A stretch of 37,363 nt of DNA. It comes from a virus. The stretch is from the IMG/VR virus record IMGVR_UViG_3300008113_000398, positions 1 to 37,363 of that record; one strand, given 5' to 3'. Positions 6,288 through 22,355 of the stretch are shown here, piece by piece; the stretch's first letter is position 1; each line of letters starts with the position of its first letter. Under the pieces are notes generated by a model that was not told the DNA's origin, made no database searches, and was given only the letters and a program-made list of their open reading frames with translations. A program made the position numbers and the translations under genes.

Positions 6288-6363
6288 TGGTGCCCCCGGT
6301 AGGATTTGAACCCACGACCTTCGCTTTACAAAAGCGCTGCTCTGGCCTCTGAGCTACAAGGGC
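6288..6363 (-). tRNA. tRNA-Thr (anticodon UGU), CCA encoded
   Basis: Read on the minus strand, a full cloverleaf folds: acceptor GCCCTTG pairs with CGGGGGC (two G-U), D-arm GCTC/GAGC, anticodon stem GCGCT/AGCGA with loop TTTGTAA (anticodon TGT), and T-stem GTGGG/CCTAC with TTCAAAT loop. Discriminator A and CCA are encoded. The outer pair of the anticodon stem is a G-A mismatch. It lies between large terminase and the 72-aa gene in the same direction, so it must be cut out of the virion mRNA. UGU reads ACA threonine codons. Confidence 0.93.
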
Positions 6364-8931: not shown

Positions 8932-9005
8932 GCAGGCGTAGTTAAACGGTAGAACATCTGGCTTCCATCCAGAGGACAGGGGTTCGACTCCCCTCGCCTG
9001 CTCCA
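8932..9005 (+). tRNA. tRNA-Gly (anticodon UCC), CCA encoded
   Basis: Acceptor GCAGGCG pairs with CGCCTGC, followed by T and an encoded CCA. The anticodon stem TCTGG/CCAGA closes a CTTCCAT loop giving anticodon TCC. The T-arm AGGGG/CCCCT has loop TTCGACT. It reads GGA glycine codons; several virion proteins of this phage are very glycine-rich, so extra tRNA-Gly could help late translation. It begins 5 nt after the Tat-protein stop. Confidence 0.95.
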
Positions 9006-10544: not shown

Positions 10545-11999
10545 ATGTTCGACAATGCTACCGCCCCAAAGGCCGCCAAGCTTTCATTTTCTAGCGCAGG
10601 CAAGTCCGCCTTGCGTTCAACTATTACTGCCAATGCCGGATGGCCCGCTTATTCCCGCCAAAACGGCAAGTCTAGTGCGGACCTTTCCGTGGGGGACATG
10701 CTCGCATTGGCCGCCGCTTTCGGCATTGACCCGGCCCCCTATTCAACGGGCCAATTTAATGAAGGGCCAAAGCCAATGACTTATTCCGCCACGGAAGCGG
10801 CCAATCTATTTGTCCGCTTTGACAATTGCCGCCATAAAATGACTGATAAGGCCCGCCGCCTTTGCTATGACATTTTTGAAACGTCCAAAAATAAGCAAAC
10901 GGGCCAAATGACGGCCCGGCAATATGACACTATTGCCGCCATTTGCCATGAAGCCGAAACGGGGGAAAAGCGGGCCTTTACTGGCCGCCGCCGCCGCTTC
11001 CGTGACAATGGCAACGACTCCGGCCAGTCCGCCGCTTATGAAGCCAAGGCGGAAGAAAAGGCCGCACAAGTCCCGCCGCCCCCGCCAAACAATGCCGCCG
11101 CGCCTAATGATTTGGCCGCCGCCATTGCCGCCGCCATTGCCGGGGTGCTCCAAAACACAATGAACGGGGACGCAATTGCCGCCCTTGTGGACTCCAAGAT
11201 TCAAGCGGCCCTTGCAAGCCAAGGCGGCCCCGCCGTCCGCATTGAATTAAAGGACACAAGCGGCAATGTGCGGACTCATGACGGCTTGCAACATAAAGCC
11301 TTTAAGACTCTGGCCCGGATGGCCGCCGCGCGCCAAGCCAATGGATTCCCCGTGAATATATGGCTTGCTGGCCCCGCCGCTTCCGGCAAGACTCATGCGG
11401 GACAGGACTTAGCTAAGCTTATGGGCCTTGGCTTTTATGGTATGGGCGCAAAAGCCACGGCCTTTGACGTTTTGGGCTTTATTGATGCGGCGGGCCAGTA
11501 CCACGGGACTCCTTTCCGGCAAGCCTTTGAACACGGCGGAATCTGCCAATTTGACGAATTGGACTCGTGGGAAAATGAAGCTTGCTTGGCCCTGCAATCG
11601 GCATTGGCCAATGATTTTTGCCAATTTCCCGACTCCATCGTGAAGCGCCACCCTGACTTTATTTGCATTGCCGGGGCTAACACGTGGGGCCACGGGGCCA
11701 CGGCGGACTATGTGGGGCGGACTAAACTAGACGGGGCTTTCCTGTCCCGCTTTGCCAAATTGCCATGGGATTACGACACGGACCTAGAAACGGCCTTGTC
11801 AGGCAACCCCGCCTTTGCCGCCCGTGTCCAAAAGGCCCGCGCCAAGGCCGCACAAGCGGGCCTTAAAGTCCTGATAACCCCCCGTGACACTATGGCCGGG
11901 GCCGCTTTGATTGCGGCGGGCTTTAGTGAAAATGAAGCGGCGGCCCTGACTTATTTGGCCGCCCTGTCCCCGGATCAAAAAACCATTGTGGAGGGCTAA
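10545..11999 (+). CDS. MoxR/CobS-type AAA+ ATPase, 484 aa
   Basis: Residues 250-480 form an AAA+ module: Walker A AGPAASGKTH (K282/T283), Walker B ICQFDELDSW (D337/E338), sensor-1 GANT (N379) and an arginine finger LSRF (R402). This matches the CobS/MoxR branch (AAA_5), which remodels partner proteins, often one with a VWA-like fold. The first 240 residues are not ATPase: a mixed helical segment with RFDNCRHKMTDKARRLCYDIF, then a Pro/Ala linker (PPPPPNNAAAPN) and an Ala-rich helix. The next gene starts 4 nt after its stop and probably encodes the partner. Codon use is strongly GCC/TCC/CCC-biased. Substrate unknown. Confidence 0.85.
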   Translation: MFDNATAPKAAKLSFSSAGKSALRSTITANAGWPAYSRQNGKSSADLSVGDMLALAAAFGIDPAPYSTGQFNEGPKPMTYSATEAANLFVRFDNCRHKMTDKARRLCYDIFETSKNKQTGQMTARQYDTIAAICHEAETGEKRAFTGRRRRFRDNGNDSGQSAAYEAKAEEKAAQVPPPPPNNAAAPNDLAAAIAAAIAGVLQNTMNGDAIAALVDSKIQAALASQGGPAVRIELKDTSGNVRTHDGLQHKAFKTLARMAAARQANGFPVNIWLAGPAASGKTHAGQDLAKLMGLGFYGMGAKATAFDVLGFIDAAGQYHGTPFRQAFEHGGICQFDELDSWENEACLALQSALANDFCQFPDSIVKRHPDFICIAGANTWGHGATADYVGRTKLDGAFLSRFAKLPWDYDTDLETALSGNPAFAARVQKARAKAAQAGLKVLITPRDTMAGAALIAAGFSENEAAALTYLAALSPDQKTIVEG

Positions 12000-12003
12000 G
12001 CCA

Positions 12004-12861
12004 ATGCGGACTTTGAATCTCCCCCTTCCCGCCAATGCGGAAGCGGCTTTGGGCCGCCCCGCCCGGACTTATTTTGCCTTGGCGGACTCCCTGTCCGCCT
12101 TGGCGGACTTTGCACAAGCCAAGGGCCGCCAAAATGGCCATGGGGATTGGTCCGGCAATAAAACCCTAACGGAAGCTTGCACGGCTTGCCGCACGGGGGA
12201 TTTGTCTCTTGTGGCGCGGTCCGACTCCCTTTTGGCCCGCTTTGAACGATTCACGTTTGCAACCCCTGCCAAGGCTTGGCGGCGGGACGTTTCGGGCCAT
12301 AGGCCGGACGTTCCCGCCCTATTGGCTGGCCATCCGGCGGCAATGCGGCGGCGGGTTAGACTTGTCACGGAAGCGGCCCCCTTGGCGGTTATTGTTGACC
12401 TAACAACAAGCGGAAGCATTGATCCGGCGGACATAGAAAAGCGCGGGGCGGCCATATTGGCCCTTTGCCGCATATTGGCAGGCCGCCGCCCCGTTGAATT
12501 ATGGGCGGGAGTCATGACTCAAGCCTTTGGCCGGGAAGGAGTCGCCCTATTCGCCCGAATTGACACGGCCCCTTTGGACCTAGCACGGGCGGCCTTTGCC
12601 ATGGTTTCCCCCGCCTATCCCCGGCAAATGTTATATAGTTTAGCGCGGGGGGCTTATGACTTTGGGGGAAGCTGGCCCTATAAGAGTCACAATATAAGCC
12701 GGGACTATTTGGCGGACATTATGCGGCCCGCCCTTCCCCATATTGGGGAAGTGTTAGCAATTCCCGCCGCTCATACCAATGACGCAATTCACAAGGCCCC
12801 GGAAGCTTGGCTGGAGTCGACTCTGGCCCGCTTAGACGGGACAGGACAGGCCGCCGCCTAG
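12004..12861 (+). CDS. Probable partner of the MoxR-type ATPase, 285 aa
   Basis: ATG at 12004 is chosen because GGAGG lies about 9 nt upstream inside the ATPase gene; a TTG at 11986 is possible. The layout is like phage proteins encoded beside MoxR-type ATPases (DUF7192 from memory, not verified): SGNKTLTEACTACRTGD, then VSGHRPDVPALLAGHPAAM, then strand-rich PLAVIVDLTTSGSID, KRGAAILALCRILAGRRPVEL, and a late segment with SLARGAYDFGGSWPY. The central domain may be VWA-like, but no canonical DxSxS MIDAS motif is evident, only DLTTSGS. Tight coupling to the ATPase suggests a joint complex. Confidence 0.72.
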   Translation: MRTLNLPLPANAEAALGRPARTYFALADSLSALADFAQAKGRQNGHGDWSGNKTLTEACTACRTGDLSLVARSDSLLARFERFTFATPAKAWRRDVSGHRPDVPALLAGHPAAMRRRVRLVTEAAPLAVIVDLTTSGSIDPADIEKRGAAILALCRILAGRRPVELWAGVMTQAFGREGVALFARIDTAPLDLARAAFAMVSPAYPRQMLYSLARGAYDFGGSWPYKSHNISRDYLADIMRPALPHIGEVLAIPAAHTNDAIHKAPEAWLESTLARLDGTGQAAA

Positions 12862-17769: not shown

Positions 17770-18003
17770 TCAGTCTGTCATTTTTGAAGCCTTAATTACG
17801 GCCTCACGGTTATTTTTCAGCCATTTAAGGGTCGCTAAAATAGCTTCCCAATATGGAATTCGCCTTTCTGCTTCATCCAAGACTTCTTGCGGCCTATCCC
17901 CTTGATCTACATACCTTTTTGTCAGCGCCGCAAATGCCTTATTATTTCGGATGGCATCTTCAACGTGCTTTATTTGTTGATCCAAGCTGATTTTATCTGC
18001 CAT
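17770..18003 (-). CDS. Hypothetical helical protein, 77 aa
   Basis: ATG at 18003 lies inside the end of the methyltransferase gene (11-nt overlap). The product is almost all charged helix: LDQQIKHVEDAIRNNKAFAAL, DEAERRIPYWEAILATLKWL. Small coiled phage proteins of this form are common and uncharacterised. It sits in the leftward early operon between methyltransferase and Cro-like gene. No enzymatic motif. Confidence 0.65.
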   Translation of the reverse strand: MADKISLDQQIKHVEDAIRNNKAFAALTKRYVDQGDRPQEVLDEAERRIPYWEAILATLKWLKNNREAVIKASKMTD

Positions 18004-18520
18004 GAAATACAGTCCCTTCCAGCGGGATTGTGTCTTTGAACAAATACCAACAACAATTATCCTTTCCAGCCATATCGCTGTCAGCAATCCACTTCACCCT
18101 GCCAACTGAAACTATAGTCCAACAGTACAAAAGATGATTGGCAGCCTGCTTGGTGTGCATCCAGTCAGCGTCGAAGAGCAACCAAGTGGGAGCTATAGCT
18201 GAGCAGCGTTCTATAATCTGGTGCAGCGGGGTCCGGTCCCACGGCGGGTTAGTGATGATGTACTTGGCCCCGTTCAGATCATCTTTGGTGATCCATGAGG
18301 CATCGTGACGCCGGATGCTGTCATGGCGGGGTTCAACGTCAAAAGCTGACACGCAGCGCAGCCCAGCGGCCTCCAAATGACGGACAAGATCACCCGCGCC
18401 AGCACAAGGCTCACAGAAGCTAGACCCCGGCAAAAGATGCGGAAGCAATGGCTTCACTGCTTCCATTGGCGTGGGGTAGAAGTCCAACTTCTCCCTGTCA
18501 AAGTCAGACCGCTTCCCCAT
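17993..18520 (-). CDS. Class I SAM-dependent N6-adenine methyltransferase-like protein, 175 aa
   Basis: Contains FYPTP (14-18), SAM-binding motif I FCEPCAGAGDL (35-45), an acidic strand end FDVEP for ribose binding, and the catalytic motif IV NPPW (91-94), as in phage and restriction N6-adenine methyltransferases. It is short: no separate target-recognition domain is seen, as in other small phage methyltransferases. Start has GGGGAG upstream. Possible roles are protecting phage DNA from restriction or altering methylation-dependent host gene control. Target sequence cannot be read from the protein. Confidence 0.82.
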   Translation of the reverse strand: MGKRSDFDREKLDFYPTPMEAVKPLLPHLLPGSSFCEPCAGAGDLVRHLEAAGLRCVSAFDVEPRHDSIRRHDASWITKDDLNGAKYIITNPPWDRTPLHQIIERCSAIAPTWLLFDADWMHTKQAANHLLYCWTIVSVGRVKWIADSDMAGKDNCCWYLFKDTIPLEGTVFHGR

Positions 18521-19239: not shown

Positions 19240-20002
19240 TTGCCTGCCTTACCTTGGCTCACCGCGCCATACGATACCTAGCCGCCCCCGACCTTGCCTG
19301 CCGGACCCTGACGAACTAGACCACTCCCCGCCAGACCTCACATTGCCATGCCTGCCACGCCATACCCGACAATACCGGAACCGAACCTACCGTACCCGAC
19401 CATGCCTGCCGCACCCTACCTATCCTTCCCGACCGTGACAGACCACGCCTGCCAAACCTTTCCCAACCGTCCGAGCCTTGCATAGCCACGCCTGCCGTAC
19501 CAATCCAAACCGGGACGCACCCGACCCCCCATACCTCACCTCGCCTGCCAAACCGCCCATACCTCACCCGTCCGCGCCGTCCTTGCCTGACCCAACCTGC
19601 CATACCAATCCCTACCAGCCCTCACCTGACCTTGACTTGCCTGCCTTAACTGACCAGAACTTGCCATGGCCTAACAAGCCTAACCATACCTGCCCTGCCT
19701 TAACGAAACCTACTCAGCCCCAGCCAACCATACCTGCCTTAACACACCTCACCTCCCAGACCCGACCTAACCGCACCACACCTGCCGTAACAAACCAATC
19801 CGCAACCTTCCCGAACGTGCCTAGCCTGACCTGCCGCGCAGAACCGCACCCCACCAGACCCAATCAAACCCTGCCGTGCCTGAACGCACCTGCCTTGACA
19901 CAACGCGCCAGAACGAACCGTGACAGACCTCGCCTCACCTGCCCTGCCCCGACAAATTCCACCGTAGCTCACCGCGCCTTGCCTGCCGCGCCTAACCGGG
20001 CC
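19240..20002. repeat. Non-coding array of degenerate pentamers punctuated by 16 TGCC tetramers
   Basis: On the plus strand the segment parses into pentamers of the form NNRCC (for example TTACC, TCACC, GCGCC, ATACC), about two thirds exact in units I parsed. On the leftward mRNA strand this is GGYNN. The pentamer register is reset by an extra TGCC, making CCTGCC at 19243, 19297, 19351, 19405, 19448, 19491, 19544, 19596, 19640, 19689, 19733, 19781, 19830, 19889, 19938 and 19982. The intervals are 54, 54, 54, 43, 43, 53, 52, 44, 49, 44, 48, 49, 59, 49 and 44 nt; ten of fifteen equal 5n+4. The N positions vary freely. The array begins 10 nt after the stop of the 150-aa gene and ends 24 nt before the next start, so it fills the intergenic gap of the operon. 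It does not encode protein: a period of 5 is not a codon repeat. Confidence 0.9.
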
Positions 20003-20011
20003 AAGAGGAGG

Positions 20012-20464
20012 TTAGATCACCTCGTCAATCGCAGCGACCAGATTGGCAAACTCTTCATAGGCCGCATAACGCTGCTTCCAAATCCTGATCTCACGCTTGG
20101 CGCGGTCCAAGATTTCTTCACGCATATCCACATTGGTCATTGCCACTTCAATCGGTACATACTGTGGCTCTTCCAATGTCACATGAACAAACGCACGGGT
20201 TTCAGTATCAACTGGTGCGTCTGCATACTCAGCGACAACGATAGAACCCATCAACTTACGCGCTTGCCACAAACGATAGTTGTCAGCTGCTTTGTCATCC
20301 TGCCATTCAAAGCATGGATGCAATGGTGAACGTGGATTAGCTGCATCATCAACAACTGCGCGGGGAGTCAGCTCACCATTTGCAATGCGGATTGTATGCA
20401 AACGCTCCGCAGCAATCTGTGCGCCAACAGGAAAGCGTGAGTCTCGTCGCCATTCATAAATCAT
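20012..20464 (-). CDS. Conserved phage protein of unknown function, 150 aa
   Basis: ATG at 20464 (MIYEW) is preferred because GGGG lies 5-8 nt upstream; ATG at 20470 is an alternative. The protein begins YEWRRDSRFPVGAQIAAERL, then LTPRAVVDDAANPRSPLHPCFEW and DDKAADNYRLWQARKLMGSI, and ends in charged helix. Proteins with this plan occur in many tailed phages next to homologues of the upstream 210-aa protein. No enzymatic motif is known to me. It directly precedes the pentamer array in the transcript. Confidence 0.78.
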   Translation of the reverse strand: MIYEWRRDSRFPVGAQIAAERLHTIRIANGELTPRAVVDDAANPRSPLHPCFEWQDDKAADNYRLWQARKLMGSIVVAEYADAPVDTETRAFVHVTLEEPQYVPIEVAMTNVDMREEILDRAKREIRIWKQRYAAYEEFANLVAAIDEVI

Positions 20465-20482
20465 GTTCATCCCCATGAGTGT

Positions 20483-20506
20483 GGGGCGACACCGAAGCAT
20501 CGCCCC
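20483..20506 (-). promoter_or_regulatory. UUCG-capped intercistronic hairpin
   Basis: On the minus strand GGGGCGATGC closes on GTGTCGCCCC around TTCG: ten pairs (two G-U) capped by the very stable C(UUCG)G tetraloop. It starts 8 nt after the 210-aa stop and ends 19 nt before the 150-aa start. No T tract follows, so it is more likely an mRNA stabiliser or translational control element than a terminator. Confidence 0.65.
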
Positions 20507-20513
20507 GTTGTTA

Positions 20514-21146
20514 TTACGCTGCCTTCTGGCGGCTATTACGAATGTCAGTGATGCGCTTCATCTCTTCTGCGCTGGCAACATGGAAGCGACCATATTGGCC
20601 GTCTTTCTCAGGACGCCATTCACCAACACCAACTGCGAAGCCCGCAGTCTGCATGAGGTTCAGGATTTGCTCAGCGGACATAACATTCGCATTGTATTTG
20701 ACAGCAATCGTTGTGAACCAATTACGGAACTCACCACGATAACGAATGTCAGCTGTACCCATGGCAATGCGAACCATGTCCTCACGCATTGTCGGTTCAT
20801 CACCTTCAATCACTGCGTATTCACCATCAACGTGAAACGCCTGTCTTGCAGCGACTTTCGTCATGCTGCCGATAGACGTACAAGCCGTGACAGCCGCAGC
20901 CTTAAAGCCGATGATTGGAAAACCATACGTGCCATCTTCCAGCACATACAATGACTCCTTGAAGTCACGTTCCGGGTCTTTGGCTTCTTTGCCAGCTGTA
21001 GCTTTCTTCATTTGTTTATCAAGCATTTGCTTCTTCGCTTTTTCTGACCAGCGGTGAACAATGAGTGGTGTATCGCCCACCAATGTCACATGAACAGTTT
21101 CGATCTTCAGCGGTGGTAGTGTCACCGTAGATGTAGAAGCAGCCAT
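20514..21146 (-). CDS. Conserved phage protein of unknown function, 210 aa
   Basis: Conserved features: VTLVGDTPLIVHRWSEKAKK, QMKKATAGKEAKDPERDF, YGFPIIGFKAAAV, MREDMVRIAMGTADIRYRGEF and GVGEWRPEKDGQYGRFHV. These recur in many tailed-phage early regions from memory, always without assigned function. The alternating strands, a basic helix and a glycine-rich GVGEW loop are compatible with nucleic-acid binding, possibly an RRM/RAMP-like fold, but that is only inference. Start 21146 has AGGGGAA upstream. Its gene, the 150-aa gene and the pentamer array are consecutive in one transcript. Confidence 0.82.
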   Translation of the reverse strand: MAASTSTVTLPPLKIETVHVTLVGDTPLIVHRWSEKAKKQMLDKQMKKATAGKEAKDPERDFKESLYVLEDGTYGFPIIGFKAAAVTACTSIGSMTKVAARQAFHVDGEYAVIEGDEPTMREDMVRIAMGTADIRYRGEFRNWFTTIAVKYNANVMSAEQILNLMQTAGFAVGVGEWRPEKDGQYGRFHVASAEEMKRITDIRNSRQKAA

Positions 21147-21199: not shown

Positions 21200-21592
21200 C
21201 TATTCAGCCGATTCTAGTAATTCTTTCAGTCGTTGCTTGTCATCTTGGCTTATTCTGTATCCAAAGCCGTTATAATGAACAATAGACACACCGTAACGAC
21301 TGAGCTTCCGTCTTGTATGGGATACTGCAACCCTTGCACGACCGTAACTATGTGGCAAAACTTCACTGCGGATTTGATGACCGTATTCAATCATCAGTTG
21401 GTCGATACGTTTAGTTGGCAGCTCACCATTGTTTTTATACAGAGCGTTGATGATCGTTGCTTGCTGCGGCGACAGACCAAAGCGTCCCAAGAAAGGATTG
21501 TCAGGAGGCATGAGGATTTCCCTCATTTGCCTAATCTCTTCTTCAAGATGATCTATGCGCTCTCGTAACGATCTAACCTGACTCGTTTCCAT
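21200..21592 (-). CDS. Coiled-coil winged-helix DNA-binding protein, 130 aa
   Basis: Residues 1-30 form a coiled coil (RSLRERIDHLEEEIRQMREIL). Residues 38-125 look like an OmpR/PhoB-type winged helix: LSPQQATIINALYKNNGELP, VAVSHTRRKLSRYGVSI and a closing YNGFGYRIS. No receiver domain is present, so it would act as a constitutive phage transcription factor. GGGGAA precedes the start; the start overlaps the RusA gene end by 20 nt. Confidence 0.75.
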   Translation of the reverse strand: METSQVRSLRERIDHLEEEIRQMREILMPPDNPFLGRFGLSPQQATIINALYKNNGELPTKRIDQLMIEYGHQIRSEVLPHSYGRARVAVSHTRRKLSRYGVSIVHYNGFGYRISQDDKQRLKELLESAE

Positions 21593-21947
21593 CTGTATTC
21601 CCCAGAGATTCTATAATGACCTCACATTCTGGCCCTTTATCTATCCAGCGGGCTTCTATCCACTCACATAAGCAGTCATCTTCCACGATATTCTGGCTAA
21701 CCAGTATGTCACTGATCGCTTTTTCTAAGTTGCCAAGATCACGCTTTCTTTTGTCGGGACGCACAGCCAATATTGTCAGCTTGTATGGTCCTTTGACTGA
21801 CTTACCCTTGGCTTGGCCAGCGATCTGCCACATGGCAAGCCGCCGCCAATCAGTGTACTTCTGGCTACGATAGACGCCCCCTCCCTTACTCGCCCTCCAA
21901 AGGCGGTTTACTGACGGGGGGAAGGGCAGCACAATCCTGATTGTCAT
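21573..21947 (-). CDS. rusA: RusA-family Holliday junction resolvase, 124 aa
   Basis: Matches RusA in length and motifs: LPFPPSVNRLWR near the N-terminus, then KRKRDLGNLEKAISDIL (D70, N73, D80) and NIVEDDCLCE (D90/D91), the acidic residues that bind magnesium. RusA dimers cut four-way junctions symmetrically, resolving recombination or replication intermediates before packaging. It overlaps both neighbours, so it belongs to the leftward early operon. It would complement ERF and YqaJ from the rightward operon. Confidence 0.92.
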   Translation of the reverse strand: MTIRIVLPFPPSVNRLWRASKGGGVYRSQKYTDWRRLAMWQIAGQAKGKSVKGPYKLTILAVRPDKRKRDLGNLEKAISDILVSQNIVEDDCLCEWIEARWIDKGPECEVIIESLGNTDGNESG

Positions 21948-22257
21948 TCATGCTTACCTTTCTCCGTGCCAGCATCTTATGGACATAGTGTTCCACCAGC
22001 GGCTCAGACAGCCGCATTTCTTCGGCAATCTCAGCGGTATTCCGACCCATATTCCAGAACCCTTCTATATAAAGGTCTGGCCTAATCCTGTAGGGGTGGA
22101 TGCCAGTCGCTTGTGAAACCACCCTTACCCACTTCACTGGCAGCATTTCCCAACTGGATACGGCCTGCTTTGACACGCCAAGAGCTTCTGCAAGGCGTGC
22201 TGCGTTGCCGTATCGCCTGAAGATTTCAAGCAAAGATGGGTCACGGTCCAGCTTCAT
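21886..22257 (-). CDS. YdaS/Cro-like repressor-type regulator, 123 aa
   Basis: ATG at 22257 is the likely start (a GTG at 22284 is possible); no strong ribosome site, so it may be nearly leaderless behind TAATAT at 22277-22272. The N-terminal HTH reads LLEIFRRYGNAARLAEALGV, SKQAVSSWEMLPVKWVRVVS and ends with the YdaS-like HPYRIRPDLY. A second helix-turn-helix-like part follows (GRNTAEIAEEMRLSEPLVEH). It is the first gene of the leftward operon, divergent from the rightward operon, the usual place for a Cro/CI switch regulator. Its end overlaps RusA by 62 nt. Confidence 0.8.
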   Translation of the reverse strand: MKLDRDPSLLEIFRRYGNAARLAEALGVSKQAVSSWEMLPVKWVRVVSQATGIHPYRIRPDLYIEGFWNMGRNTAEIAEEMRLSEPLVEHYVHKMLARRKVSMNDNQDCAALPPVSKPPLEGE

Positions 22258-22355
22258 GCAGACAAAATGGCATATTATCCCCACTTGTCAAGAGGGGGGT
22301 TGACTTATTCTGCGGGGTAAGTATATATGGGGAACCCTACTACGGGAGAAACCAA
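22258..22355. promoter_or_regulatory. Divergent early control region
   Basis: For the rightward operon, TTGACT at 22300-22305 and TATATA at 22322-22327 (16-bp spacing) form a good sigma70-type promoter. GTCAA and TTGAC half-sites around GAGGGGGG at about 22286-22304 form an inverted repeat that overlaps the -35 and could be the operator of the YdaS/Cro-like protein. GGGAGA precedes the first rightward start at 22356. Confidence 0.6.

Follow-up and report, generated by a model that had tools for sequence, protein, structure and literature searches.

The closest described system to the locus analysed here is VIPR (Viral Interference Programmable Repeat). In the accessible part of the report (PMC13142463, bioRxiv 2026) it comprises Vipr, which is a RAMP protein, together with a vap gene and RNAs termed vrRNAs that are built of GGY/NN repeats. 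The NN dinucleotides of these RNAs are described there as reading double-stranded DNA with one skipped base, and the system is used between phages. The vrRNAs hold 9-16 GGY/NN repeats, the accessory genes are named vap1-6, and vrRNAs aimed at other VIPRs are reported as well. Several array architectures are named in this part of the text, such as staggered arrays with overlapping vrRNAs. In the vrRNAs of SUSP1 (VIPR type II, SUSP1 clade) a structured 3' tail follows each repeat tract, a feature that the accessible text does not state for all types. Among the literature matches listed there was no further paper on the system, and the others were unrelated uses of the letters.

Here, we describe a locus of this kind in 37,363 nucleotides of viral DNA (IMG/VR record IMGVR_UViG_3300008113_000398), referred to as the window. 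The window is of phage nature, as seen from the virus record and from its terminase and portal genes, in keeping with the published trait that VIPR resides mostly in phages and prophages. We regard it as nearly certain that a region of the minus strand is a phage VIPR locus, in which a Vipr of 210 aa and a candidate accessory protein of 150 aa go together with an array of vrRNA guides. The kind of system is known; new are this member of it, its likely target and the evidence that GGCA separates the guides. The order on the minus strand is vipr (20514..21146), a GC-rich hairpin (20483..20506), the 150-aa ORF (20012..20464) and ~770 nt of GGYNN pentamers (~19240..20008). This is the consecutive arrangement of two proteins and a pentamer array that a first-pass annotation had read from the letters of the DNA, and the ORFs lie where it had placed them. 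Promoter and terminator scans of the region stayed near shuffle level, so that a single transcript of vipr, the second gene and the array is unproven. Upstream of vipr lie genes for a Cro/YdaS-like regulator (window 21886-22284, minus strand) and a RusA resolvase (21573-21947, minus strand), and the VIPR locus may therefore sit in an early module. Elsewhere in the window, the plus strand encodes a 484-aa phrog_249 protein ('porphyrin biosynthesis'; 10545-11999) followed by a 291-aa phrog_1909 protein (11986-12861), which we take to be possibly a phage CobS/CobT-like pair. The window also holds two tRNA genes, Thr(tgt) at 6288-6363 (minus strand) and Gly(tcc) at 8932-9005 (plus strand).

Sequence comparison shows the 210-aa protein to be homologous to SUSP1 Vipr, whose structure has been solved (PDB 36pp). 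A profile of 32 Vipr relatives finds PDB chain 36pp_D, 'SUSP1 Vipr protein', with an E-value of 6.6e-13, the next match having an E-value of 0.24, and the window Vipr as a single query finds the same chain by phmmer (E 2.8e-6). The protein falls into phrog_4652 (E 1.2e-30), and a Pfam search gave no family for it or for the 150-aa protein. A RAMP-like fold had been suggested speculatively in the first-pass annotation, and structure prediction of the protein alone agrees with it. The AF2 model (pLDDT 84.4, pTM 0.77) has a predicted RAMP/Cas7-like fold; the best Foldseek matches are chains of type VII Cas7 and of Csm3 (54 at an E-value of at most 0.001), and the comparison with Csm3 gives a VIA Z of 10.6 and an rmsd of 3.7 over 151 residues. 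The G-rich loop AGFAVGVGEWRPEKDG is kept in 32 aligned sequences, and AGFAVGVGEWRPEKDGQYGRF is probably the counterpart of the RAMP glycine-rich loop. One Vipr subunit per pentamer of the RNA, which the first-pass annotation had proposed together with a restart at GGCA, is plausible.

The second ORF has 162 aa at its longest (20012-20500) and 150 aa from the start codon at 20464. Its 150-aa product matches phrog_15946 (E 6e-24), and this match and the neighbourhood make it a candidate VIPR accessory gene (vap). A homologue adjoins vipr in 47 of 56 viral loci, in a tally that also took in the window and a duplicate locus. The model of the 150-aa protein (pLDDT 86.5) gave no PDB fold match. The hairpin between the two genes is capped by UUCG and has a 10-bp stem with a folding energy of -19.5 kcal/mol (z -3.19). 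Similar hairpins with changed stems and partly different loops occur in the closest relatives only (L003-L009 and L011), and none was obvious in four more distant relatives that were folded (L012, L013, L017 and L018). Being confined to the closest relatives and varying in its loops, the hairpin is not a core part of the system.

The array was segmented into 135 pentamers and 23 tetramers, giving ~15 guides (W#), each with a GGCA head and mostly 8-11 GGYNN pentamers. Position 1 of the pentamer is G in 126 of 135 cases, position 2 is G in 107 and T in 22, position 3 is C or T in 125, and positions 4 and 5 are near-random in composition; the segmentation scores favoured GG and these frequencies are therefore partly built in. 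An independent test, which counted GG at 12 fixed slots of 60-nt windows, found at least 8 GG slots in 20 of 142 windows, whereas none of 200 Markov shuffles of this sequence had more than 8 such windows. A shuffle also attained the single maximum of 9 slots, because phase shifts interrupt long runs. Tandem Repeats Finder did not detect the array in the window, since the period alone is conserved, and an Rfam search gave no match. Between the window guides no structured 3' tail was seen, and GGCA alone separates them. Single GGNN tetramers (GGAC, GGGA, GGGC, GGGG, GGAA), in which the Y is seemingly missing, stand inside W#4 and W#8-W#11 (19411-19800, minus strand); their NN appears to be kept in homologues, as in GGGA versus GTTGA in the relative L006.

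The strongest check that the array is real is the comparative survey, in which the same architecture recurs in relatives. An array was sought within -1.5/+2.5 kb in 56 IMG/VR loci with a Vipr relative, and a GG-period-5 array was found near vipr and on its strand in 44 of them. Counted by strand, 53 arrays lie on the vipr strand and none on the opposite one within this distance, compared with 1 and 2 in the remaining 514 kb. No array was detectable in 12 of the 56 loci; in four of these the sequence runs on for more than 4 kb downstream of vipr, and several end within ~1 kb of it, which L016, L024, L028 and L044 do not. Among 62 loci from named genome records, 53 carry a GG-period-5 array on the vipr strand, and the closest of the 62 are from Alphaproteobacteria (Rhizobiales, Sphingomonadales). 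Annotated phages contain a Vipr relative in 39 records, mainly from Mycobacterium (27) and Gordonia (5) phages, and the array is visible in phages Brocalys, UmaThurman and Ecliptus. In Mycobacterium phage Brocalys (L341, ~2190-2350) a clear GGCNN array is located upstream, not downstream, of the vipr-like gene 45, near antirepressor and excisionase genes. The first-pass annotation had named such a neighbourhood survey as a possible refutation of its proposal that two proteins and a repeat RNA form a unit; the outcome was favourable. The two proteins and the array probably form a unit, the linking hairpin is no general part of it, and the interpretation is supported overall.

How the system would work can be outlined from the published one, from which RNA processing, RNP formation, binding and repression are carried over here by analogy. 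Most likely, Vipr subunits would coat each guide with a five-nucleotide period, with GGY gripped by the protein and NN on display. Double-stranded DNA would be read by the NN pairs in the pattern NNxNNxNN, one base of the target being passed over for each pentamer, and target genes of competing phages that are bound in this way would be silenced.

Recognition with a one-base skip, the noncontiguous reading that is typical of VIPR, is indicated in our material by sequence matches only. A first target scan of 57 records gave no clear overall excess for skip 1 (mean best mismatch fraction 0.223, 0.217, 0.222 and 0.222 for skips 0-3). The pool was then widened by 80 terminase relatives and 80 methyltransferase relatives. 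Against these 217 records, 418 units gave 4, 165, 3 and 13 matches at E<0.05 for skips 0, 1, 2 and 3 (E-values of the target scans assume equal base frequencies and apply per guide, uncorrected for the number of guides); the skip-1 count is inflated because the pool is enriched for the target gene, most of these matches being to one motif for which the pool was partly fetched. When all units were compared with 66 loci chosen for Vipr, not for targets, skips 0-3 gave 3, 15, 1 and 4 matches at E<0.01; comparison of the new units with the older loci yielded 4 matches for skip 1 and 0 for skip 2. Several skip-1 matches of the 66-locus test translate into protein segments that look conserved, and in these the wobble base is the one skipped. 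Among these targets are vipr itself (segment DYEACFYRT in L027, L353 and L356) and, by our own reading, an HTH-like segment. A guide of L054 matches 17 of 18 bases of the vipr genes at L353:5178, L356:5175 and L027:10181, at DYEACFYRT, and would be a case of VIPR directed at VIPR. Some entries of these scans call for caution. The best skip-3 match (24/24, L008 to L007) is array-flanking DNA common to two relatives, the L351 entry among the skip-1 matches is in fact a skip-0 match, and two skip-1 matches are doubtful, L359#0 being flank and not guide and L353#1 also matching its own contig at 20/24.

Alignment of guides and targets also bears on where a guide begins. In 12 guide-target pairs, picked by hand from the skip-1 matches, the target match starts directly behind GGCA, at the first pentamer, and in some guides it is weakest over the final one to four pentamers. 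For the CA of the header, 3 of 24 target bases would match, and for the CA of the next header 6 of 24, which is about chance; judged from these pairs, GGCA is not itself read. Across 123 arrays, GGCA accounts for 452 of 668 four-base phase shifts, successive GGCAGG are spaced by 4 mod 5 in 375 of 540 cases, and GGCA spacing peaks at 9-10 pentamers and is most often 8-12. We infer that each GGCA tetramer is the border of one guide.

A target was found for 2 of the 15 window guides, one firm and one tentative. The firm one belongs to the last guide, W#14 (19249..19302, minus strand), with its GGCA header at 19299-19302, 10 pentamers and the NN pairs AA CG GC TA AT AT GC GA AA AA. Read with a one-base skip, it matches 20 of 20 bases at L179:925, the DNA of the conserved motif KRAYIIADNK of ParB-domain proteins, many of which are DNA methyltransferases. 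The exact pattern matched at least 120 stretches in IMG/VR. In all 120 matches listed the skipped base is the codon wobble position, with the guide in the longest frame; 118 of the 120 spell KRAYIIADNK, and in 115 the frame also holds a GHG or [DNS]PP[YFW] motif, as is expected of ParB-domain or methyltransferase proteins. Related guides of L006 (18/18), L004 (20/22) and L007 (20/22) match the same motif. The first striking match, which was picked out of the list of the 57-record scan and then followed up, linked guides of the window, L004 and L006 to a gene of the near relative L005 that encodes a ParB/N6-adenine methyltransferase. L005 carries the motif gene and none of its guides is among the matches; neither the 37-kb window nor the fetched parts of L003, L004 and L006-L011 contain the motif, a pattern that would suit self-avoidance, contigs other than the window being partial. 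A 175-aa phrog_799 protein (17993-18520) was considered as a remnant of the L005 methyltransferase, and comparison ruled this out. These matches suggest that the last guide would act against phages that carry a ParB-domain/DNA methyltransferase gene.

The tentative target is that of W#12 (19357..19410, minus strand). Its pattern gave three matches at 18 bases, and two of these, from one phage type (L339 and L340), extend to 20/20 in a gene of the major capsid family PF05065 (E 6.4e-16), where the skipped base is codon position 1. By our own estimate ~0.1 such 20/20 matches per scan are expected by chance, so that this target is only suggestive. The patterns of W#13, W#8 and W#9 had 0, 0 and 0 exact matches in IMG/VR, and for W#13 a search that allowed up to 2 mismatches found nothing in 385 genomes, which were drawn from the class of a Sphingomonas centre. 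The remaining window guides were mostly compared with the fetched loci only.

The near-random composition of NN in the window array, together with a strict period and free sequence, would also fit an RNA with a structural or packaging role, or a scaffold of single-stranded DNA, that is coated by the RAMP-like protein and in which NN has no function. The comparison of homologous guides speaks against it. In 21 guide pairs of the nearest clade, selected by a total identity of at least 75% and with flank and irregular units dropped, mismatches at pentamer positions 1-5 were 9, 25, 42, 20 and 25 of 176; before dropping these units they were 10, 31, 49, 24 and 31 of 215. NN differs in 45 of 352 comparisons and Y in 42 of 176 (Fisher p 0.0018, with pairs that share guides and are not independent), which points to a modest constraint on NN relative to Y. 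In a half-unit comparison no constraint on NN stood out clearly (mismatch fractions 0.104, 0.172, 0.178, 0.141, 0.141 and 0.060, 0.138, 0.168, 0.144, 0.210 at positions 1-5); it mixed unrelated guides and is superseded by the homologous pairs of the close clade. Moreover, it is mainly when one base is skipped that the NN strings find matches in conserved phage genes, and a functionless scaffold is very unlikely. The first-pass annotation had likewise taken NN as free sequence and missed that it would be gapped guide sequence for DNA targets.

The fold of Vipr, with its matches to Csm3 and Cas7, could also suggest a relative of type III or type I CRISPR-Cas with degenerate repeats and contiguous spacers. 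We consider this extremely improbable, since no cas family was found among 9 proteins scanned around the array, Tandem Repeats Finder saw no CRISPR-type repeats, and contiguous reading (skip 0) yielded 4 and 3 matches where skip 1 yielded 165 and 15. For the locus taken as VIPR, it might still be asked whether the W#14 match is a chance likeness to a frequent protein motif, the true target being another gene. All 120 listed matches come from one homologous gene family and thus count as one event, and the 217-record pool was enriched for the methyltransferase gene. Against this stand the agreement at 20 of 20 bases, in which the wobble base is the one skipped, the three other guide patterns (W#13, W#8 and W#9) that match nothing, and a guide of L007 and L008 that overlaps W#14 in a shifted position and matches the same place; we therefore think a chance likeness improbable, and prefer the ParB/methyltransferase gene as the target of W#14.

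Taken together, GGCA-delimited arrays free of tails may be a widespread VIPR architecture that goes with this Vipr clade, in phages and in genomes of Alphaproteobacteria, Actinobacteria and Firmicutes, with guides that are in effect written in protein language and with shifted guides of sister phages converging on one motif. We offer this joint reading tentatively, at slightly less than an even chance. If it is true, skipping of the wobble base lets a conserved protein motif be recognised by one guide in hundreds of phages that have diverged, and since the motif belongs to the ParB-domain/DNA methyltransferase family, the phage would attack the DNA-modification gene of its rivals. The convergence of shifted guides in sister phages on the same motif suggests repeated acquisition, by an as yet obscure process because guides of this kind cannot have arisen by simply copying the target DNA. 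The question of how a phage gains guides without such copying is thereby sharpened. The matches lend the gapped VIPR code support drawn purely from sequence, in a clade apart from the two systems for which the main text of PMC13142463 details the targets, and they name a likely natural target for a VIPR guide. With guide borders that can be read from sequence, the targets of many more VIPRs would become predictable.

Among known systems, the Class 1 CRISPR RAMPs (Cas7, Csm3) resemble Vipr in that they are the best structural matches of its model; they probably share the glycine-rich loop, and polymerisation on a guide RNA is plausible. In contrast to Class 1 CRISPR, the window showed no CRISPR repeats and, among the 9 proteins scanned around the array, no cas genes. 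Class 1 CRISPR uses a six-base period and a contiguous spacer, whereas the code here is gapped and has five bases. The likeness to VIPR of SUSP1 and of the P. fulva prophage, as far as the accessible text describes them, is much closer: a small RAMP protein homologous to SUSP1 Vipr, a small candidate accessory gene adjoining it and a phage-borne locus. Unlike in SUSP1 VIPR, the window guides are directly consecutive, with GGCA between them and no visible structured tail, further published architectures being known to us by name only. In common with VIPR as described there, the locus has RNAs of GGY/NN pentamers in about the published repeat number, and its clade appears to read targets with a one-base skip that falls mostly at the wobble position, the targets lying in other phages and in other vipr genes.
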